DNA of 21,017 bases, taken from positions 1 to 21,017 of the IMG/VR virus record IMGVR_UViG_3300031974_002773. One strand, written 5' to 3'. Shown here piece by piece: positions 1 to 10,946 of the stretch (position 1 is the first letter of the stretch; the number at the start of each line of letters is the position of its first letter). A model generated the notes under the pieces. The model was not told where the DNA came from. It ran no database searches and saw nothing but the letters and a program-made list of their open reading frames with translations. Position numbers and translations under genes: made by a program. Source of the stretch: a virus.

Positions 1-3000
1 TAATTTCACCTTTTATTTGTTCAAATATTAAATCAGATTGCTTTTCATATACATTTGCATCAAATGCTAATTTTGAAGGAACAACAACATTGTATCTTTC
101 AGCATCATATATATTTTCTTGCTTTATAACATTAGGATTTAATTTAACAACTTCATTATATAATCTTATCTTAGAGCTTGGTACTTCTTTCCAAGATATT
201 TTTCCGTCAATAGCTTCTTGTATTTTTTGTTCTAAAAATGGGTGTAGCTCTGATTTAGATTTATACTTTTTACCATTTAAATCATATGTTAAATCAACTT
301 TATAATGGCTATCTGTTCTGTTTTTTCCTTCACCACTTTTTAATGCAATTTGTATATAGTTATTAGCTAACCAATTTGCCATTACTGTTTTAGTATTAGC
401 ATTTTTAATTTTAGAATATACACCAACTAATTTTGCAAATTGACCATGCTGTAACACATGCTCTTCTAATATTTTTGTTGCACCTACTTCTAGCCCAATC
501 AACTGCGCCATATTCCTAGTTGCAGCACCATTAGCGTTTTGATTATAAACAATTAGACCAGTAGCTTTCTTATTAATATTGTACATGCCGGCTAAAACAT
601 CTAATGCAGTTTTAAAATTCTTTTTAAAATCTTTTCTAATAGCCAAGTTTTTATTTAAATTTTTTGTTTTTTGGCTTTTAATTACCATTGCCCAAGGAAA
701 TGCTTCTTCAACTTTTTTACCCTTAGTGGTCAAAGGTAGTCCTAATTCTTCTTTTATTTTTTGTAAAGCAATGACCTCTAATAATTCGCCTTTGTCTCTA
801 GCTTTAATAGCAGCTTCATCTATTGCTCGACTTACAAAAATGCCATCTCGCATGTTTTTAAATTTATTACCACCAGGTGCTAAATTACTTGGCGTCATAA
901 AAAGCGCTGAATCAGGTAATTGATCAATCATTTTTACATAACCTCTAAATATACTTTGTAATTCTGATTGACTTTCTTTATTTATTTTTCCTCCAAATTC
1001 ATTTGCAACTTCTTCATTTATTTTAAGTTTTTTAACTTTACTAAACATTACATCAGCTTTTCCCGCCGCTATATCTTGTTTAGCTTGTAATGATAAATCG
1101 CTTTCAGCTCTTACAATTTCATTGGTAATTAACTTACCTGTAAGATTCATTATACCTTTAATTCTTTGTGCTTCAGGTGATCTTGGTGATAAACCTTCTC
1201 TTAGTTTTCCATCAACTATACCCAAACCTTCTAAAAACTGTTGTCTATTGATTGAATTAAGCTTATATGGGCTTAAACCGGCTCCTCTGGTTAATCTTTC
1301 TTGTTTTGTATAAAAAACATCTAGCAATGATTTTGGAACTCCTGTAGACGTACCTAATAATTTTTCGCTTGCAGCTTCAACAACTGCACCTTTAGGCAAT
1401 AATCTTAATAATTTATCTGCATTTTTATTTATATTTCTTGCGGCATTACTTAAATCGCCTTTATTCAAGTTAGCTTTTGGATCTGTAACTTTTTTAGCGG
1501 GTACTTCAAATATTTCAGCCGTAGTTTCTGGTGATAAATCTTTTAGTCTTTTAAATGTTAAATCTTTTTCAGAAACATTTTTAAGACCCTGCATTATTTT
1601 AGATTTTGCAGCTTCAATATTTTTTAATAATGAACTTGGTTTTATTTTTTTACTTACTGGTTTTTCAGTAATAGTTTCAGTTTCTTGTGCTACAACACCT
1701 TTTGCTTCAGTTACATCAACCGTAAATTCTTCACCTAATATTTTATTAGATGCTTCAATCATTCTTGAAGGTAAAAATTTATTTATATATGCAGCTAATG
1801 GGACGCCTGAATTGGGGTCATAGCTTCTTATTAATCCAAGTATTCCTCTATCGGAATATTTTATTTCACTTGTTAAATCTTCTCTATTAAAATTAGGCGC
1901 TTCTCTTCTTTTATCTACTAGCTTATTAATTATAGGATTAAATGCTTCGATAATATCAAATGATCCGTCAATACCTTTTTCATTGTAGATATTTTGTACA
2001 TTATCCGATGCTTGTTTTGAAAGTGCTACTTCAGCTGGACCAACTTTACCAATGCCTTTAGCTAAACCTTCGGATAATCTACCTTTGTTTATACTATTTG
2101 TATATTCACGCATAAAAGTATAAACATCTTGAGCATTATTAAATTCAATCTTTTTATAAGGTGTAAACCTTCTAATCATTTCAACTAGCCAATCTCTTAC
2201 TTTAGTAAATACTGTTTGATTATATTTTATATCACCATTTTGGCTTAAATCGGAAAATACACTAAAAAATTCTTTAGCATGCTCAGAAGGATCATATCTT
2301 TTATTTAATGCATCTTGTAATAATTGTCTTTCGGTAGGTGGTAATAATTCTAAAAAGTCATTTTGTAATTGTTGTAATTGTTCAGGGTTAAGTGCTTTTA
2401 ATTTTTCAGCCACAACGCCGTGCATTACTTCGTGACCACCAACATTTAAGTTATTTGTTTCAGCAGCAACTTGTTCATTAATATATATTTTATTACCTGA
2501 TATAAAACCTCCAACCTCGCCTAATTCAGATCTTTGTTCATCATTTAATTTAATACCATCTGCCTCAATACCTGCTTCAAAATCTTGTGTGCTTTTAAAT
2601 ACCTTAGTTTCTAATCCGATACTTTCTGCAGATTCTGCAAATTCAGTTGATTTTTTAACATCACCTTCTATAACTTGATTTTTCTTTGCATTAAATATTT
2701 CATCAAGTGCAGACTCTTGATTTTGTATTGAATTTTCAATAAGTTTTCTTGTTTCAGGGTCAGTTATATCTTTTAAACCTTCTTTAGCTTGTGATACAGC
2801 AACTTTACCTGCTGCATACTGAGCTAATTCATTATCATCAAATAACTCTAAAGTTCTTTCGTTTATTTTTTTATTATCTAATATTTGTTTTTTTAATTTA
2901 AATATTTGTGTTTCAATAATTGGATTAGGTGCTTTTTGATATTGTGCCTCTAGCTTACCTATTTGTTTTGTTAATAATAAATTTTCTTTCTTCATTAATG

Positions 3001-4183
3001 TAGGAGAAAGCCTTTCATTTACATATGATTTTGCAGCATCAGTTTTACTAGCACTTCCTAACCCTCCCCCTATGATGGCGCTTATCATGAACGTATCGAA
3101 ACTTCTTTGTGCTATATTTCCCCAATCATATTTAAAATCACCACTTTCATATGTTTCATCTTTTCTATAACCAAATACATTTTCATCATCCCACATTGCA
3201 TCAATAAACCTATTTGTTTCTTGAGCACCAACTTCTGATATTCCCTCTAATGTTGCTCCAGTAAATACTCTACCAGTTAAAGTTTTTGTAAGGTTTTTAT
3301 AAACATTTTTAGCTGTTTGAGGCGCTAATTTACTAGCAACAGTACCTCCAAAACCTTTAAGAATACCTCTTGTTACCATTTCACTAACAAGTTCAATACC
3401 ACCTTGAGCAACAGACATTGTGAAAGCTTCTAAATCACCTTTTTGTGCACCTGCTTCAACTTTTCTTTTATAAGCATCTCCCGCTGCTGATCCAAATAAA
3501 GCTGCATACCCTGCCGGACCAGATAAAGCTGCTAAAACACTTGGTGTAGCTTCAACAACACCATTAAGTATTTTTTTAATACCATCAGCGGCATTGCCTT
3601 CATCACTAAAAAATTCTTCATATGCTGTTCTTTCAACATCTTCATAAGTAGCAGTATCAATAGCTTCTTTAGTAAAACTTAATTCTTTAGCTATTTTGCC
3701 TCCTCCAACAGTATCTACTATTGGTTGGAATACTTGATCTGAAATAATATCTATTACTTGATTCTGTTGGTCTTCTGTAAAATCAGGGCGAAAAACTTGT
3801 ATTAAATCTGTTGCTGTTCTTAATTTTGTTTCTGCTACTCCTTTCAAGTATTCAGCTGTATCATTATACATTTTAGCGAATGCACTACTTAGCCTAACGC
3901 CAGTTCCCATTCCTCCAACCCCAGGTAATTGTATATTTTTTAATGCACTACCTATTGCCTTTTTTTGTAAATCCGAAGAAGTATCCACCAAATTGGAATC
4001 CATATCGGGTGCTGCAGTTTTCTCCACAACCGCACCCGGTGTTGTGGGAGTTTGAAAATCCGGCTGTTGTATTTCTTTAACTCCTGGATTTTTTTCTAAA
4101 TATTCATTTAACGTTAAACCTAAATCATTTGCTATTTGCAAAACTTGGTCTAAAGTAAATTGTTGTCCATTATATTCAAACAT
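1..4183 (-). CDS. Giant ejection/polyvalent-type protein with HExxH metallopeptidase motif (partial, C-terminus off left edge)
   Basis: The frame starts at an ATG at 4183-4181 and stays open to the window edge, giving at least 1394 residues. Residues 584-588 read HEVMH after two glycines, a classic zincin zinc-binding motif, and an acidic/aromatic EFFSVFSD segment with Glu638 follows about 50 residues later as a possible third ligand. Gly/Ala-rich hydrophobic stretches lie near residues 205-235 and 355-375. The remainder is mostly charged, Lys/Glu-rich and helical in composition. A conserved-looking MFSK sits at 1046-1049, and an EHVLQH segment lies around 1241-1246. The gene begins 4 bases after the 442-residue gene stops and is last in the virion block. 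Size, position and domain style suggest either an injected internal virion protein (like T7 gp16) or a polyvalent protein carried into the host with the DNA. The peptidase motif is seen directly. The role is inferred, and substrate and full length are unknown. Confidence 0.8.
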   Translation of the reverse strand, partial: MFEYNGQQFTLDQVLQIANDLGLTLNEYLEKNPGVKEIQQPDFQTPTTPGAVVEKTAAPDMDSNLVDTSSDLQKKAIGSALKNIQLPGVGGMGTGVRLSSAFAKMYNDTAEYLKGVAETKLRTATDLIQVFRPDFTEDQQNQVIDIISDQVFQPIVDTVGGGKIAKELSFTKEAIDTATYEDVERTAYEEFFSDEGNAADGIKKILNGVVEATPSVLAALSGPAGYAALFGSAAGDAYKRKVEAGAQKGDLEAFTMSVAQGGIELVSEMVTRGILKGFGGTVASKLAPQTAKNVYKNLTKTLTGRVFTGATLEGISEVGAQETNRFIDAMWDDENVFGYRKDETYESGDFKYDWGNIAQRSFDTFMISAIIGGGLGSASKTDAAKSYVNERLSPTLMKKENLLLTKQIGKLEAQYQKAPNPIIETQIFKLKKQILDNKKINERTLELFDDNELAQYAAGKVAVSQAKEGLKDITDPETRKLIENSIQNQESALDEIFNAKKNQVIEGDVKKSTEFAESAESIGLETKVFKSTQDFEAGIEADGIKLNDEQRSELGEVGGFISGNKIYINEQVAAETNNLNVGGHEVMHGVVAEKLKALNPEQLQQLQNDFLELLPPTERQLLQDALNKRYDPSEHAKEFFSVFSDLSQNGDIKYNQTVFTKVRDWLVEMIRRFTPYKKIEFNNAQDVYTFMREYTNSINKGRLSEGLAKGIGKVGPAEVALSKQASDNVQNIYNEKGIDGSFDIIEAFNPIINKLVDKRREAPNFNREDLTSEIKYSDRGILGLIRSYDPNSGVPLAAYINKFLPSRMIEASNKILGEEFTVDVTEAKGVVAQETETITEKPVSKKIKPSSLLKNIEAAKSKIMQGLKNVSEKDLTFKRLKDLSPETTAEIFEVPAKKVTDPKANLNKGDLSNAARNINKNADKLLRLLPKGAVVEAASEKLLGTSTGVPKSLLDVFYTKQERLTRGAGLSPYKLNSINRQQFLEGLGIVDGKLREGLSPRSPEAQRIKGIMNLTGKLITNEIVRAESDLSLQAKQDIAAGKADVMFSKVKKLKINEEVANEFGGKINKESQSELQSIFRGYVKMIDQLPDSALFMTPSNLAPGGNKFKNMRDGIFVSRAIDEAAIKARDKGELLEVIALQKIKEELGLPLTTKGKKVEEAFPWAMVIKSQKTKNLNKNLAIRKDFKKNFKTALDVLAGMYNINKKATGLIVYNQNANGAATRNMAQLIGLEVGATKILEEHVLQHGQFAKLVGVYSKIKNANTKTVMANWLANNYIQIALKSGEGKNRTDSHYKVDLTYDLNGKKYKSKSELHPFLEQKIQEAIDGKISWKEVPSSKIRLYNEVVKLNPNVIKQENIYDAERYNVVVPSKLAFDANVYEKQSDLIFEQIKGEI

Positions 4184-4187
4184 GATT

Positions 4188-5516
4188 TTATTTATTTTTA
4201 GGTAAGCCTGATGTATTATAATATTTTATACCTGCTTTTCCAACTATTGTACTCAAAGCAGCCTGCCTTAATTCTTCTAAATTAAATATATTTACTTGCA
4301 TTTTACTTAATTCACCACCGTAGGATTCTCCAGTCCTATAAATATAATATTTACCATCTTCAGGATCTTTTTGTATTGCACTTTTAGCCATATTTAAAAT
4401 CCTATTATATGATTTTATTAAACCTTCTACATCTTTTATTCTTGATGGCGTTTTACCTGCTGGATATGGCCCACCTGGTCCACTCTTATCTATTTGTGTA
4501 GGTTTAAATTTATTATTTATTACTAATAATTGATTGTTAATTAATTTAGCTGTTTCTTCTGCACCTGTTAAATTTTCATCTTCATCTTCATCATTATCTT
4601 TTGGCTTAACATTTATTGTATATATTCTTTCTTCTAATTCTTCAGTATAAACATCTTGAATTAGTTTATCTTGCGCTGCCCAAATTTCTTTTCTTACTTC
4701 TTCATCTAATTTATTACCTTCTGGATCTTCCGTAGGATGCCATTCTAGTACACCTCCTTTTTTATCATCAGATATTTTTTCATAAAATAAATATGATGAA
4801 GTATCTGCATCTAATGTACCTTTTCTATTTAAATGCTCCGCAATTCTTATTGCTCTTAAATCACCTTCTATACCTTTTCTTGCATCATCTTCAATTAAAG
4901 CTTGAATTATTTTACTATCAGCGCCTATATTTTTTTCCCAATCTGCTTCATCATCTGCTATTGATTTATAAGTTGGTAAATATTTGCTCATATCTCTAAG
5001 GCTAACATTATATGTTTTACCATCTTCTGTTGTTGTTGTGAATTTAACATCTAATGAAGTTTGGTCACCAGATATTTTCACTTTATTAGGGTCTGATTTT
5101 AATTGAGTTAATATTGCGTCTAATTCTGGATTAGCTAATTTACTTTTATTACTTAATTCATCTAAATCAATACCATATAATTGAACAAAAGCCTCAGAGC
5201 CGGCTTTGATTTTTGCTACATCGTTTAAAACTTTTTGCCTTTCAACAGCTGTCATTTTTGCAAAAGCTGCGCTATCAATCATAGAATTAATACTTTGCTG
5301 TATACCATTATTAACAGAAGTGTTTACACCTTCTAAATCTCCTATATTTGTATACTTAATTAATTCAGCTTGTATAAGATCATCTCTTTCTCTTTGTTTT
5401 TTAATATCTTCTGATACTTTTTGAAAAGCATTAAAAGTATTTTGAAAACTTTGCATAAAGCTTTGTGAAAAAGCTAAAGGATCTGCAGCATAAATTTTTG
5501 GATTTCTATAACTCAT
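4188..5516 (-). CDS. Hypothetical virion protein, probable ejection protein
   Basis: This is a 442-residue acidic protein that I do not recognise by sequence. The first 50 residues are Phe/Gln-rich and look helical (SFMQSFQNTFNAFQK). The middle is charged, with a DNDEDEDEN acidic run at 308-315, and a Pro/Gly linker (SGPGGPYPAGK) lies near 345-355. There is no signal peptide and no membrane segment. It is the middle of three consecutive genes between the tail proteins and the giant peptidase-bearing protein, which is where T7-like podoviruses encode their three internal virion (ejection) proteins. A gp15-like role is therefore plausible, but on context only. The start at 5516 follows an A/T-only leader (TAAAAAATAAATT), like the neighbouring genes. 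A predicted frameshift extension of the upstream gene ends 10 bases before this start. Confidence 0.75.
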   Translation of the reverse strand: MSYRNPKIYAADPLAFSQSFMQSFQNTFNAFQKVSEDIKKQRERDDLIQAELIKYTNIGDLEGVNTSVNNGIQQSINSMIDSAAFAKMTAVERQKVLNDVAKIKAGSEAFVQLYGIDLDELSNKSKLANPELDAILTQLKSDPNKVKISGDQTSLDVKFTTTTEDGKTYNVSLRDMSKYLPTYKSIADDEADWEKNIGADSKIIQALIEDDARKGIEGDLRAIRIAEHLNRKGTLDADTSSYLFYEKISDDKKGGVLEWHPTEDPEGNKLDEEVRKEIWAAQDKLIQDVYTEELEERIYTINVKPKDNDEDEDENLTGAEETAKLINNQLLVINNKFKPTQIDKSGPGGPYPAGKTPSRIKDVEGLIKSYNRILNMAKSAIQKDPEDGKYYIYRTGESYGGELSKMQVNIFNLEELRQAALSTIVGKAGIKYYNTSGLPKNK

Positions 5517-5526
5517 AATTTATTTT

Positions 5527-5652
5527 TTACATTCCCCCATACTGGGCTTTTCTTGCAGCGTTAGCTAAAACGCCAGTTAAATCATTTGATTTATATTGAT
5601 AATTATAATTTGATGGCCCCGGCGTATTATTTTGCCCCGTCGGGCTTTTTAC
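5527..5652 (-). other. Predicted -1 frameshift extension (41 codons) of the 243-residue ejection protein
   Basis: In the -1 frame relative to the gene above, reading is open from the slippery site to a TAA at 5529-5527. It adds 41 residues, beginning VKSPTGQNNTPGP and ending AARKAQYGGM. The frame has no ATG except the penultimate codon, and no GTG or TTG, so it is unlikely to be an independent gene. Codon choice after the first dozen codons (AAT, TAT, TTA, AGA) matches the real genes here, and the peptide reads like protein: a Pro/Gly/Asn linker followed by a short Ala-rich helix. It fills the only gap larger than about 70 bases in the window. The fused product would be 284 residues. The alternatives are a one-base sequencing error or an untranslated remnant. 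Confidence 0.65.
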
Positions 5653-5658
5653 TTTCCC
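5634..5658 (-). promoter_or_regulatory. Programmed -1 frameshift site: slippery heptamer GGGAAAG plus downstream hairpin
   Basis: On the minus strand the gene ends TTG GGA AAG TAA. Bases 5658-5652 read G GGA AAG in the zero frame, which fits the X XXY YYZ slippery rule and is identical to the site used by phage lambda for gpG/gpGT. A spacer of 6 bases (TAAAAA) separates it from a hairpin GCCC-GACG-GGGC at 5645-5634 (four G/C pairs, four-base loop). A second GGGGC-containing segment at 5615-5623 offers an alternative pairing partner. The shifted frame then continues for 41 codons. Heptamer, spacing, hairpin and open frame all coincide. Efficiency cannot be judged from sequence. Confidence 0.65.
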
Positions 5659-6380
5659 AAATCACCAGCTGCACCAATTAATGCCCCACCTATTGAGCCA
5701 AACGCGCTGCCTATTGCGGATTGCTGTGCTGTTCTTGATTGAGCAGCTAATCCCATATATTGGCTTGTCAATGCAGATAATCTGTCTAGTTTTTGCATTT
5801 CTCTTTGTTCTTTTGCTGTGAACATAAATTGTTTACCTTGAATATCTGCTTGTTGTAATCTTTGTGCTTCAGCCATTCTTGCCTGTTGCATTTGTATTTC
5901 GCCTTCTGCTCTTGCTCTTGCATTTGCAGCTTCTTGCTGTTCAATACTTGCAGCAATACCTTGTTTACTTCTTGCAGCCGCTTGCGCTAATGCTGTTGCA
6001 CCGCCTGCTCCTGCACCCGTTGCTAATAATGTATCCAATGTAGTAGCTAATGATAAATCAGTTTGTGCAGCTTGAATATCTGCGGCTTTAGTAGCAACCT
6101 GTAAATTAGCATATGGATTAGTGATCATGGAACTTAAATCTCTAACGTTTGCATATGGATTTACAATAGCTTGTCTATTTGCTTCAGCTGCTTTTAATTT
6201 CCCTTCATATTCTCTTTGCTTAGCTTCCATTCTTCTAGCTTGTCTTCTCGCTTTACCTGCGCCAAATAAGCCCCCAATAAGATTTATTCCAGCGCCAATA
6301 CCAGCAATAGCTAGAGGCCCCAACGCCCCTAATGTTACACCATCTGGTGCCCCGATTAATATTTCTAATAATTGTTCCAT
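5649..6380 (-). CDS. Internal virion (gp14-like ejection) protein, zero-frame form
   Basis: This is a 243-residue Ala/Gln-rich protein. Residues about 16-41 form a Gly/Ile/Leu hydrophobic segment followed by a basic Arg/Lys cluster at 44-50. Residues 44-70 and 140-200 are Ala/Gln/Glu/Arg-rich and look like long helices or coiled coils. A second Gly/Ala hydrophobic segment covers 220-240. The motif NPYAN occurs twice, at 74-78 and 88-92. Small helical proteins with hydrophobic ends, encoded just after the tail genes, are typical of podoviral ejection proteins that form a channel through the cell envelope. The family assignment rests on this architecture and position, not on a recognised signature. 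The gene starts 5 bases after the 428-residue gene ends. Its final codons GGA AAG TAA sit on a slippery heptamer, so this is probably the short form of a frameshifted pair. Confidence 0.75.
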   Translation of the reverse strand: MEQLLEILIGAPDGVTLGALGPLAIAGIGAGINLIGGLFGAGKARRQARRMEAKQREYEGKLKAAEANRQAIVNPYANVRDLSSMITNPYANLQVATKAADIQAAQTDLSLATTLDTLLATGAGAGGATALAQAAARSKQGIAASIEQQEAANARARAEGEIQMQQARMAEAQRLQQADIQGKQFMFTAKEQREMQKLDRLSALTSQYMGLAAQSRTAQQSAIGSAFGSIGGALIGAAGDLGK

Positions 6381-6385
6381 TTTTT

Positions 6386-7672
6386 TTAATTTGATGATTG
6401 TGCAACCTCACTTGAGACCGCAAATAATTCTTGTTTATTTGTTGCGTTAGTGTCAGTTTTAAAAGTTAATGAAGCATACATTCCTTTTACACCTGACATT
6501 TCTTGACCAAATAATATTTCATTTTCATTTATTGATGAATTATTTTTAATAATACTAAAATATTTGTTTTCTTTTTTATTAAATATATTACCACCAATTA
6601 AATTATTTGTATCTAAATTTTTAAAATATTGATTGTCATATTTATCAATATTAAAAGCTTGATCAGTATAATCATTAACATTATCTAAATCTGTTTTTAT
6701 ATCTTGCACGCTCCAACCAGATGTTCCTTCATAATTTACAGTATGAAAAGTTTTAACTAATGAAGTTTCATTATTCATTATTAATTGTACATAAGAATTT
6801 TCTTGTGTACCATAAAAACTATTATAATTGGTTGTCTGATAGTGCTTCCAAATATTAGGTCCTTCATTTAATGTAGTTTTTAATGTATAAAAATCACTAC
6901 CTAAACTAAATCCGCCTTCCGGATAATATTTATAAAAACTTGTCCAACCATTAGCCGGTTCGTCAAACCCTAATGTATAATCTGTAGAAGATGTATCTAA
7001 ATGTATTATATATTGATCTTTAACCGAATCATACATGCCATAAACATGATTAGATATTTTTAAATTATCTTTAAACCAATCATGCATACCATAATAAGAT
7101 ATTTCAGTCAACCCATCTCTTGATAATCTTAATACTACATTTCTTTTATTATCTGCAAAATATTTTCTACCGCCTTTATGTGCAAAACTTTCGGGGACTG
7201 TTCCAATACCATATCTTCCCAAATAAGGAACTATAGCCCCAATAAATAAATTTGATGTTGCTGCCAATGGAGCACCTTCCGCTGTAAATATAAAATCTTT
7301 ATCTACAGGAGCAAAACTGACTTTATCTTCTTGTAATATAATTAATCTTTCGTCTTCAGCAAATAATTTTTGTATACTGCCATTAGATATATCAACTGCT
7401 TTAGTAATACTTGAACCAACAGGAAATTGGTTTAAATTATTTACACCTGTTTTTGAATTAAAAATACCAGAATATGTCATTGCATTTTTTCTTCTTTCGT
7501 TTGCATATGTTTCATCAACCGCGTATGCTCTTACACCAAAATCCATAAAAGTGTTATTAAAGCCACCTTTAATTCTAGATTCTTCTATATGCCATTGATA
7601 ATTAAGGCCAGGGCTTGGCTCAGTTCTTAAAAATATTGCATTAAAGTACGCTATTTGCTTTATAACTCCCAT
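6386..7672 (-). CDS. Tail/stabilisation-type structural protein, C-terminal-half family
   Basis: This is a 428-residue, Tyr/Asn/Phe-rich and probably beta-rich protein. Segments I recognise from large structural proteins of marine tailed phages include RRKNAMTYSGIFNSKTGVNN at 60-79 followed by an NQF at 81-83, GSIQKLFAEDERLI at 98-111, YGIGTVPESFA around 154-164 and LRLSRDGLTEISYYGMHDWF at 181-200. In the family as I remember it, these follow the N-terminal segments seen in the next gene upstream, on one chain. Here they start at their own ATG 31 bases after the upstream stop and in a different frame. A role in the tail hub or nozzle (P22 gp10-like stabilisation or muzzle-type protein) is inferred. 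The Met at 7672 is well placed after an A/T leader, and the family motifs begin within the first 40 residues. Confidence 0.75.
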   Translation of the reverse strand: MGVIKQIAYFNAIFLRTEPSPGLNYQWHIEESRIKGGFNNTFMDFGVRAYAVDETYANERRKNAMTYSGIFNSKTGVNNLNQFPVGSSITKAVDISNGSIQKLFAEDERLIILQEDKVSFAPVDKDFIFTAEGAPLAATSNLFIGAIVPYLGRYGIGTVPESFAHKGGRKYFADNKRNVVLRLSRDGLTEISYYGMHDWFKDNLKISNHVYGMYDSVKDQYIIHLDTSSTDYTLGFDEPANGWTSFYKYYPEGGFSLGSDFYTLKTTLNEGPNIWKHYQTTNYNSFYGTQENSYVQLIMNNETSLVKTFHTVNYEGTSGWSVQDIKTDLDNVNDYTDQAFNIDKYDNQYFKNLDTNNLIGGNIFNKKENKYFSIIKNNSSINENEILFGQEMSGVKGMYASLTFKTDTNATNKQELFAVSSEVAQSSN

Positions 7673-7703
7673 AATATATTTAATTACATATTTTTATAAT
7701 TCT

Positions 7704-10700
7704 CTAAGGACTACACTGAGAGTCAACATTTATGTCTTGTACTACTCCAGCTGTTCCAAATCCAACTCTAGCATGAAGACCTGAACCAGATGTAGAAGTC
7801 CTTATAAATCCTGCAAACGCATTGCTTAATGTTCCATTGCTATAAGTTGTATAAACAATATCTCCTATTTCAAATCCAGCAGATTGTGAAGAATTAGTAC
7901 TTGGATTTCTAGTAATAAAAAATTGTTGCGAGGTATTTGTTGAACAAATACCATTAAAAACTACACTGTACAAAAAGCTTGATGTAGCTTGTGGTGTGAT
8001 TTCAACATCAACATATCCAGTATCTTTAAAATTATTATCTAATGCTGCATCTAATACTTTAACATTTATTCTATAAATAGTTCCAATATCACTAATAGCA
8101 AAAGCGCTTGCATTAGATATAACACCTGTTGTTTGATTTATAGAAAATAAATTACTTGATGTAACATCTGTATTTGATCCGCTAGGATCTTCAAAAACAC
8201 TTACAATATAATAATTTAATCCCAAGGTATCTTGCGGAGTGGTATCATCATGGCTACCATTTTCTGCTTGGCATGTAAATACGCTACCTACTCTATAATG
8301 CGTATGTGTTGTAGTTGCATTTAAATTTGTAAAGAAAGGTGCTACATTATTTAAAGAAACTGTTATGGTATCATCTATATAATTGTTACTTGTATCTGTT
8401 GCGCGAATAGTTACGTTATATGTTTCACCGCTTGAACCATAATAAAATTTTGCTTGCGTAACTCTTAAATAATTATTATTTATATCAAATCTACTTGCAA
8501 TATTTGTTGATAAATCACTTTGTGCATATACAGATAATAATTGAAAAGTTATGGGTGATAATACACTACCGCCGGCATCTTTTGCTGTTAATGAACCAAT
8601 TTGATGTGGGATAGTAGCGTCTTCATTAAATGAATCTGTTGAGTTACCATCAATTTCAATACTATTAGGTCCACCTGAACTATTTGCAATTTCAGTATTT
8701 AATTCAACAACTAATCCGCTTGTAGAGGTTTCATAATATATATCTAAAGCACTTTGAACAGGATATGTTTCCCAAACACTTAAATTTGTTTTTAATGTTC
8801 CGTATGTGCTATCAGGTAATTCAGCTACTAAATGATTTTTTGCAGACTCATGCAAAGTATTTAATGGTTCTCCTGGTGTATGAGAAACTGTTGAACTTTC
8901 ATTAACTAAAGATTGTTCTCTATATGTGCCAACACTAATAACATCTATAGGGCCATCATTAGATATAAAATTTGTAGTATCTGCAATATTTGGAATTTTT
9001 GGATATAGCACTGTATTTGATGCACTAACCCCTGACTCCTGCGTATTCGTAGTTATATCTCTAGGCACTTTATTTATATTGTCACCATGCAAAGTTAACC
9101 ATGTTCTTTCATCATCAGCAGTATGATTTGTTGCGCCTATACCGTCTAAAACTTTTACACCTGTTGTTGGATAATTGCCTAATGCTCCAGGGGCATATAT
9201 TGTATAATATTCTTGCTCAGTTTGTTTAACAACAACTTTCCACGAATACCACCCTAATGGACGATCTGTTGCATGGTATGCATCGGGTATAGGAGTATTA
9301 AACACTATTTGTAAAGCATCCCCATTCCAACTTTGTGCATTTAAAGTAGTGTCTTTAGCTTCAACTCTAACTGAAGATTTTTCAATATCACTGGGTAAAA
9401 TTACACTTGATTGTCTACCATATATATCAGATAGAACTAATCCTACTTGATATGTTCTTCTTTGCTTTATAGTATGATAAGGGTATTGTATATGATAATT
9501 TTGTACAGGATTTGTTTGAGTAGTTGCAGTTTTTTGATCAACTCTTGCTTCAAAATCAATTGAAGGTAAATTATAGTTTTGTTCAAAATTACCGTATATT
9601 AATCTATTTCCAGTTATTTCTTGCGCTTTTGCTTTAATAGGAACATTATCGTATACTCTTGTTAATTGCTCTTCTGTTAAAGTTTTATATGGTAAAGTTG
9701 ATTTATAAATAAAACTATAATTAGTACCATTTATATTTGTTATATATGTAGGGGATAATGCATCAGGGTCTTGATAAACATGCTCTAATGAAACGGATTT
9801 TATAATTGATTCATCTGATTCTTTATATAATACTTCAATCTTTTCAATATCATGCGTATTATATACGTCATTAGAGGGTAATTGTATTTTTAATTGAACC
9901 TGCACAACATCATTTGTCATACTTTCTAATTCTGTACTTTTAATAGCTTCTTTTAATTGTGCAATATTTAATCCATTATCATTACCAGAAATTGCACTAT
10001 TATATGTCTTAGGTATAAAACAATGTTGTGTAAATGGCGATATTAAAGAATACTCGCCGTCTTTAAATTTAAATCTATAAGCAAATCTTACAAATTCTTC
10101 TTCTAAATATTTTTTTTCAGATGTAAAAGTTAAGGCTTCACTAGTTAAATTAACTGGATTTGTTAATACTATTGTTGTATCATTTGTTACACTATCTATA
10201 TATGTTGCAGCTGGTATATTTGTTCCTTCAACTAATTGCCCTGCAAATACGTCATAATTTGCTGCTGTTAATGTAACTGTTGTAGATGCTCCACTGGTAT
10301 TACCTGTTGCTGTAGTTTTAGAAATTTGCATACCTGTATGCGTTTCCGCATTATTAAAAACAAGTGGCGCACTATAAGGATAATATTTTGCTACAGATAT
10401 TTTTATTTCACTATCATAATGTGTGGGATCCAAGATAGCTGTTGAAACATTTATTTTTCTAGGTTGATTATTATTATCAGTCCAAAATAACAGATCATCA
10501 ATCATATTAACACCTGTTATTAAATTATTTTCATTAAATTTTAAAAATGAACCTGAAACAATAGCTTTTGGAGGGGAAGTTGTAAAATTATAAAAAGAAT
10601 TTTTTGGAGTTTCTATATTATAAGTTGAAGTATCATAATAATATATACCGTTATTAGCAGCGCTACTGCCGGCTACAAAATAAAATATTCTATTTGATTT

Positions 10701-10946
10701 ATCATTAGGTTCTTTTGAATTATTTTTAGATTCTTTTTCTACATAATATCCAATTATTTTTCCTTGTACATTTACGGAACCTATTGTAGAATTACCTTTG
10801 ATATTTTGTATAACACCAGTATCTGATCCTTCTGATTTAGTAATATGTATATTCTGCGCATCTCTATATTCACCATTTGGTAATAGTCGCGCGTCTAAAT
10901 CTTTATTCATTTTACCTTTTAAAAAGGTATTTTTAATTTCAGACAT
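7704..10946 (-). CDS. Large tail stabilisation/nozzle-type structural protein with Ig/cadherin-like domains
   Basis: This is a 1080-residue protein. Residues 8-31 carry FLKGKMNKDLDARLLPNGEY and then RDAQNI, and residues 285-306 carry FVRFAYRFKFKDGEYSLISP and then FT. I know both from marine phage tail structural proteins often compared with P22 gp10. Between them, residues about 206-278 form a Thr/Ser/Val-rich beta insert (VEGTNIPAATYIDSV at 239-253). Residues about 770-867 and 868-985 look like two cadherin/Ig-like repeats: FDINNNYLRV and LFSINQTTGVIS strand motifs, each with a DxxxNxxxDT- or VEIT-type ending. The C-terminal 90 residues are Ser/Gly-rich. The first gene after the ring-gene block, it starts 6 bases after the 385-residue gene ends. 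It probably sits at the distal end of a short tail and may contact the host surface through the Ig-like repeats. Function is inferred. Confidence 0.75.
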   Translation of the reverse strand: MSEIKNTFLKGKMNKDLDARLLPNGEYRDAQNIHITKSEGSDTGVIQNIKGNSTIGSVNVQGKIIGYYVEKESKNNSKEPNDKSNRIFYFVAGSSAANNGIYYYDTSTYNIETPKNSFYNFTTSPPKAIVSGSFLKFNENNLITGVNMIDDLLFWTDNNNQPRKINVSTAILDPTHYDSEIKISVAKYYPYSAPLVFNNAETHTGMQISKTTATGNTSGASTTVTLTAANYDVFAGQLVEGTNIPAATYIDSVTNDTTIVLTNPVNLTSEALTFTSEKKYLEEEFVRFAYRFKFKDGEYSLISPFTQHCFIPKTYNSAISGNDNGLNIAQLKEAIKSTELESMTNDVVQVQLKIQLPSNDVYNTHDIEKIEVLYKESDESIIKSVSLEHVYQDPDALSPTYITNINGTNYSFIYKSTLPYKTLTEEQLTRVYDNVPIKAKAQEITGNRLIYGNFEQNYNLPSIDFEARVDQKTATTQTNPVQNYHIQYPYHTIKQRRTYQVGLVLSDIYGRQSSVILPSDIEKSSVRVEAKDTTLNAQSWNGDALQIVFNTPIPDAYHATDRPLGWYSWKVVVKQTEQEYYTIYAPGALGNYPTTGVKVLDGIGATNHTADDERTWLTLHGDNINKVPRDITTNTQESGVSASNTVLYPKIPNIADTTNFISNDGPIDVISVGTYREQSLVNESSTVSHTPGEPLNTLHESAKNHLVAELPDSTYGTLKTNLSVWETYPVQSALDIYYETSTSGLVVELNTEIANSSGGPNSIEIDGNSTDSFNEDATIPHQIGSLTAKDAGGSVLSPITFQLLSVYAQSDLSTNIASRFDINNNYLRVTQAKFYYGSSGETYNVTIRATDTSNNYIDDTITVSLNNVAPFFTNLNATTTHTHYRVGSVFTCQAENGSHDDTTPQDTLGLNYYIVSVFEDPSGSNTDVTSSNLFSINQTTGVISNASAFAISDIGTIYRINVKVLDAALDNNFKDTGYVDVEITPQATSSFLYSVVFNGICSTNTSQQFFITRNPSTNSSQSAGFEIGDIVYTTYSNGTLSNAFAGFIRTSTSGSGLHARVGFGTAGVVQDINVDSQCSP

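Follow-up and report, generated by a model that had tools for sequence, protein, structure and literature searches.

A programmed -1 ribosomal frameshift is the most probable reading of the 3' end of a gene, likely encoding a DNA-ejection protein of a marine phage, in the window analyzed here, a 21,017-nucleotide stretch of viral DNA. This minus-strand gene (243 codons, 5649-6380) ends in GGT GAT TTG GGA AAG TAA, and slippage at the GGGAAAG heptamer would yield a second, longer form of the protein (probability of about 0.92). The original prediction of such a shift is supported by the recurrence of heptamer, open -1 frame and hairpin across lineages. The main evidence for a frameshift in the window is comparative, and we consider it strong; it does not lie in the open frame by itself.

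Probable slip site, -1 frame and hairpin in the window

The 243-codon gene is defined by its open reading frame, by 523 homologous loci and by a helical structure model. Its heptamer, G_GGA_AAG (5658-5652, minus strand), follows the X_XXY_YYZ pattern of bacterial -1 sites, lies in the phase of the zero frame, abuts the stop codon TAA (5649-5651), and is found at the same place in other lineages; on re-reading the sequence, the G GGA AAG TAA end proved exact. The -1 frame (5527-5652, minus strand) stays open for 41 codons and encodes a tail running from VKSPTGQ to QYGGM, in full VKSPTGQNNTPGPSNYNYQYKSNDLTGVLANAARKAQYGGM, before a TAA at 5529-5527, so that the predicted product comprises 284 residues as compared with 243 for the zero frame. 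The only ATG of the -1 frame is its last codon and neither GTG nor TTG occurs in it, while the ATG of the downstream 442-residue gene lies at 5516, 10 nt past the -1 stop. The 132 nt that follow the 243-codon gene form the widest intergenic space of the module; a terminator-like site was sought in this gap and none was found, and Rfam returned no match. The codon usage of the tail (+0.22 log-odds per codon) falls inside the range of the window genes (mean 0.35, sd 0.11) and is not matched by any out-of-frame 41-codon chunk of these genes. Computation thus confirmed what had been claimed for the -1 frame, namely its 41 open codons, its lack of a usable start, its gene-like codons and its position in the largest gap of the module. 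Openness alone is not rare, since the frame survives open in 7% of dinucleotide shuffles.

The hairpin that had been described downstream is likewise present. Its predicted stem is formed by GCCC (5645-5642) and GGGC (5637-5634) on the minus strand, closed by a GACG loop, and it begins 6 nt past the heptamer, the spacer TAAAAA including the stop codon. Bacterial stimulators generally begin 5-8 nt downstream (PMC4066793). Scanning ~470 nt of the gene upstream of this fold revealed no segment of equal stability. The hairpin sequences vary among lineages; within the group formed by the window, L004 and L105 the stem is kept, as GCCC-GACG-GGGC here, GCCC-GGCG-GGGC in lineage L004 and, with a paired change, GCCA-GCGG-TGGC in L105. 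Over the 32 nt past the stop, the mean folding energy is -7.3 kcal/mol in lineages with the site versus -0.4 kcal/mol in those without it, a contrast partly due to the AT-rich spacers of the latter. Because these spacers inflate the comparison between lineages, stability was also scanned along the same genes; in site-bearing genes it peaks at the stop, where the median lineage exceeds ~97.5% of its own upstream segments. A hairpin just after the stop is therefore a property of most site-bearing lineages, the exceptions being L069, L177, L361 and L538, in which it does not clearly rise above the background of the gene. A pseudoknot pairing the hairpin loop with a CGCC further downstream can be drawn by eye for L004; it fails for the window and for L105, and is not claimed.

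The sequence elements and their recurrence, like the coding character and homology of the tails, are direct observations; we infer the occurrence and efficiency of the shift, the role of the long form and the action of its tail in the virion. Most ribosomes reading G GGA AAG would stop at the adjacent TAA and release the 243-residue protein. In a fraction of cases, the hairpin located 6 nt downstream would stall the ribosome, so that tRNA-Gly and tRNA-Lys could slip back by one base and pair with GGG AAA; the shifted ribosomes would read 41 more codons to make the 284-residue protein. Both forms would be the same helical virion protein, probably a small ejection or inner-core protein. As the stop directly follows the heptamer, ribosomes that do not shift terminate, and the frameshift would thereby set the share of C-terminally tailed copies. 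The heptamers most used in this family, G_GGA_AAG and A_AAA_AAG, rank in the top three for efficiency in E. coli when a stimulator is present, and in the most efficient bacterial motifs the A-site tRNA re-pairs on ZZZ (PMC4066793); here, this re-pairing would be that of tRNA-Lys, from AAG to AAA.

Recurrence of the site among homologues

The homologue set comprises 523 loci (from IMG/VR, MAGs and one GTDB genome scan) having the family ORF and at least 150 nt of downstream sequence. They form 250 groups at ~90% DNA identity which, with L057 added, make ~251 lineages. A slippery heptamer is the last or next-to-last one in phase in 18 of these lineages: GGGAAAG in 12, GGGAAAT in two, GGGAAAC in one, and AAAAAAG in three (L034, L057, and L069). 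The GGGAAAC or GGGAAAT heptamers, those of L004, L320, and L538, are expected to be weaker in bacteria. In all 18, a -1 ORF of 15-44 codons extends beyond the stop. The original prediction proposed aligning homologues, and in this alignment the heptamer and the open -1 frame are kept at the same place in 18 of the ~251 lineages, or in 21 if three lineages with homologous tails and non-canonical sites are included. It also held that homologues devoid of both heptamer and -1 frame would speak against the shift. Such homologues are in fact the rule (~92% of the family have neither heptamer nor extension), but 18 lineages keep both, making the feature patchy and not universal. With ~92% of the family devoid of it, the site is dispensable. 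Conservation of the site and of its -1 frame is nevertheless documented by these 18 lineages, by five sets of homologous tails and by third-position divergence, even though most of the family lacks it.

The heptamer is strongly concentrated at this position. In-phase GGGAAAG occurs at the last or next-to-last codon of 12 of 240 family ends versus none of 575 control gene ends. The chance expectation is ~0.01 at 500 positions (P ~3e-33, assuming independent lineages, which they are only in part). Beyond the site, no in-phase GGGAAAG was found in ~285,000 codons of the loci, whereas codon frequencies predict 5.9; the three instances returned by this count (L121, L355, and L396) are the family's own sites, located one codon before the stop. 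The absence of GGGAAAG from gene bodies, where ~6 would be expected, hints that these phages avoid the slippery heptamer.

A reverse search considered any -1 or +1 extension of at least 12 codons not entering the next gene, without requiring a heptamer; "-1 open" ends that merely run into the next gene were left out of the final list. A -1 extension ending before the next gene was found in 22 lineages, 18 of which have the heptamer, and none of the six +1 extensions exhibits coding-like codons. Three lineages without a canonical heptamer (L311, L392, and L443) share a tail family (SVSP... or LADTFKVTNPLF) in the -1 frame and have T or G runs (T_TTT or G_GGG) at the stop or immediately ahead of it, reading TTTTTAA, GGGGAAGTAG, and GGGGTAA; P-site slippage at the stop codon is possible in these cases. 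L182 has an out-of-frame tail fragment devoid of any shift site, and resembles a plain broken tail. Of note, in L540, L541, and L543 the family gene lies in MAG contigs labelled Woesearchaeota or Ilumatobacteraceae, which are probably mis-binned phage contigs.

Tails, zero-frame relatives and rival explanations

The tails fall into five homologous sets: L034/L039/L069; L177/L180; L004/L320/L538; L008 with the zero-frame tail of L014; and the window with the zero-frame tail of L105 (E=4e-5). The -1 frame tail of L004 is also similar to that of the window. Over five pairs, the differences are distributed 18/20/41 among the three codon positions (p=0.002), the third position being favoured. Homology, third-position divergence and codon usage together argue that the tails are protein-coding. 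L105 has GGGAAAC in phase, yet its zero frame continues into the tail, and we interpret the zero-frame tails of both L105 and L014 as having arisen at the site by fusion or reversion.

According to the original prediction, homologues encoding the tail in the zero frame would point to a sequencing error. On this view, extended to errors of assembly, a single frame would encode all 284 residues. Such homologues do exist, namely L105 and L014, whose zero frames encode similar tails, but that conclusion does not follow from them: GGGAAAG recurs at this position in 12 lineages and nowhere else in ~285,000 codons. Counting all heptamers, the same kind of junction is present in 12-18 lineages from separate metagenomes, and contigs from different samples are concordant in the pairs L039/L040 and L047/L049. 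Moreover, GGGAAAG lacks the long homopolymer run that invites errors, and there is no reason for random errors to fall on it. The recurrence of the slippery site refutes error as a general explanation, and we regard it as very improbable for the window. A biological variant of this idea is somewhat less improbable, though still quite unlikely: a real one-base indel would have severed the tail and left a decaying remnant in the -1 frame. The repeated appearance and disappearance of tails on the tree, with 16 changes among 18 lineages, would suit it, and L182 resembles an instance of it. Random indels, however, are not expected to leave GGGAAAG or AAAAAAG and a hairpin at the junction, and the tails retain their codon usage and third-position divergence.

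If the two frames are joined by slippage, the polymerase could in principle be the one to slip, and this might happen at the A6G sites of L034, L057, and L069. But most sites, including that of the window, are GGGAAAG, whose runs of three should not induce polymerase slippage, and a hairpin a few nt downstream suits a ribosome; we therefore give transcriptional slippage almost no weight. The same holds for the idea that ribosomes re-initiate at the stop codon, where the two frames overlap, and translate the tail as an independent small gene, because the -1 frame has no ATG, GTG, or TTG except at its last codon, and because the tail is fused to the upstream protein in L105 and L014.

A programmed -1 frameshift is thus our preferred reading, in a family where the state of the tail and site is labile: parsimony on the tree requires 16 changes to account for 18 lineages, a count that does not separate gains from losses. 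We tentatively suggest, without leaning towards it, that the C-terminus is a point of module exchange, at which tails (short peptides or Peptidase_S74) would be swapped repeatedly and frameshifts gained or lost, setting the number of tailed copies, while small indels would interconvert frameshifted, fused and reversed (dnaX-like) forms. In L035, L064, L281, and others, the zero-frame tail is a Peptidase_S74 (intramolecular chaperone) domain ending in ...YSLIDVEFKQI, an unusual addition to a presumed ejection protein, fibres being the more typical place for this domain. In-phase GGGAAAC or GGGAAAT also occurs inside the read-through genes of L105 and L111, 45 and 28 codons before the stop, respectively. 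A -1 slip there would meet a stop within 0-1 codon, possibly a dnaX-like reversal, although two cases are not significant alone.

Identity of the protein and comparison with known frameshifts

The 243-residue protein comprises a Gly-rich hydrophobic N-terminal segment, a helical core with the conserved motif NPYANL.VAT.AA...TLDTL.ATGA.AGGATALAQAA, and a Gly-rich end, GGALIGAAGDLGK. Its structure model is long and helical with low-confidence ends (mean pLDDT 75.7). A fold search of the PDB with this model returned no significant match, while in BFVD the top match carries the name 'Internal virion protein' (E=5e-5). Among 76 family members, one matches Pfam T7_gp14 (E=0.0099) and four match a PHROG annotated 'DNA ejection'. 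The next gene (4188-5516, minus strand, 442 residues) would by its order encode a gp15-like second ejection protein, phi38:1 gp100 and elemo gene 89 having the same position, and the third (2-4183, minus strand, at least 1394 residues), which runs off the window, would encode a gp16-like protein, in the position of phi38:1 gp101. This small/middle/giant order (243/442/at least 1394 residues) after the tail genes is that of phi38:1 gp99-gp101, annotated as structural, and of elemo 88-90; the 243-residue gene is the first and smallest of the run, as expected for a T7 gp14-like or P22 gp7-like ejection protein. In a ten-sequence search, phi38:1 gp99 matches the family profile (E=2e-7). The gp14-like label originally given to the protein is plausible but only moderately supported; a small ejection or core protein is, on balance, the likelier identity. 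Upstream (6386-10946), genes of 1080 and 428 residues match the two ends of PHROG 14478 (1474 positions), where phi38:1 and elemo have a single long structural gene; this split consists of a stop followed 31 nt later by a new ATG, and a frameshift signal is absent.

The portal and capsid proteins are 37-53% identical to those of Caudoviricetes MW202828, Maribacter phage Panino, the Flavobacterium elemo phages, and Cellulophaga phi38:1, which places the phage with the flavobacterial podoviruses; its host is probably flavobacterial. A tblastn search of 50,697 phage records with the 243-residue protein and two other family members returned no homologue. The isolates reached via portal and capsid (elemo, Panino, and phi38:1) have distant homologues devoid of the shift site.

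In phage lambda, the gpG/gpGT site is G_GGA_AAG, and in E. coli dnaX a slippery heptamer and a downstream hairpin yield two proteins differing at their C-terminus, a -1 frameshift reportedly described by Larsen et al. in 1997. The heptamer, the hairpin and the C-terminally differing products predicted here resemble dnaX, except that the dnaX shift makes the short form and the window shift would make the long one; a shift in L105, giving GGG AAA CAA TAA, would have the dnaX polarity. Lambda shares with the window the G_GGA_AAG heptamer, the -1 direction and a minor C-terminally extended product. In contrast, its frameshift product is not part of the virion and the feature is widely conserved, whereas here it is patchy and concerns a different gene in a podovirus. 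The lambda frameshift serves a tail assembly chaperone (Xu et al. 2004, as cited in PMC9965538 and PMC10885494). Longer minor forms of structural proteins are made by a -1 shift in T7/T3 gene 10 (10A/10B) and in the major capsid protein of phiEco32-like phages (PMC7881722, PMC9965538, PMC5009743). As proposed for the window, these are podovirus structural genes with a -1 site near the stop, and the phiEco32-like site is also GGGAAAG, but they encode capsid proteins, whereas the present family is a small helical protein in the ejection position, with tails of 15-44 residues belonging to several families.

The full-text literature searched contains no report of a -1 frameshift in genes for ejection or internal virion proteins, which is weak evidence for novelty as most subscription papers lie outside it. 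If real, the frameshift would add a class of phage genes to the short list of those using this mechanism. Two forms of one protein would then be expected in the ejection or core complex, the longer of which gene callers would miss. The share of tailed copies among relatives would be none where the tail is absent, all where it is in the zero frame, and some as in the window. Because relatives have the site, lack it or carry an in-frame fusion, the family would constitute a natural experiment on the gain and loss of frameshifting and on the role of a minor extended form in the virion.
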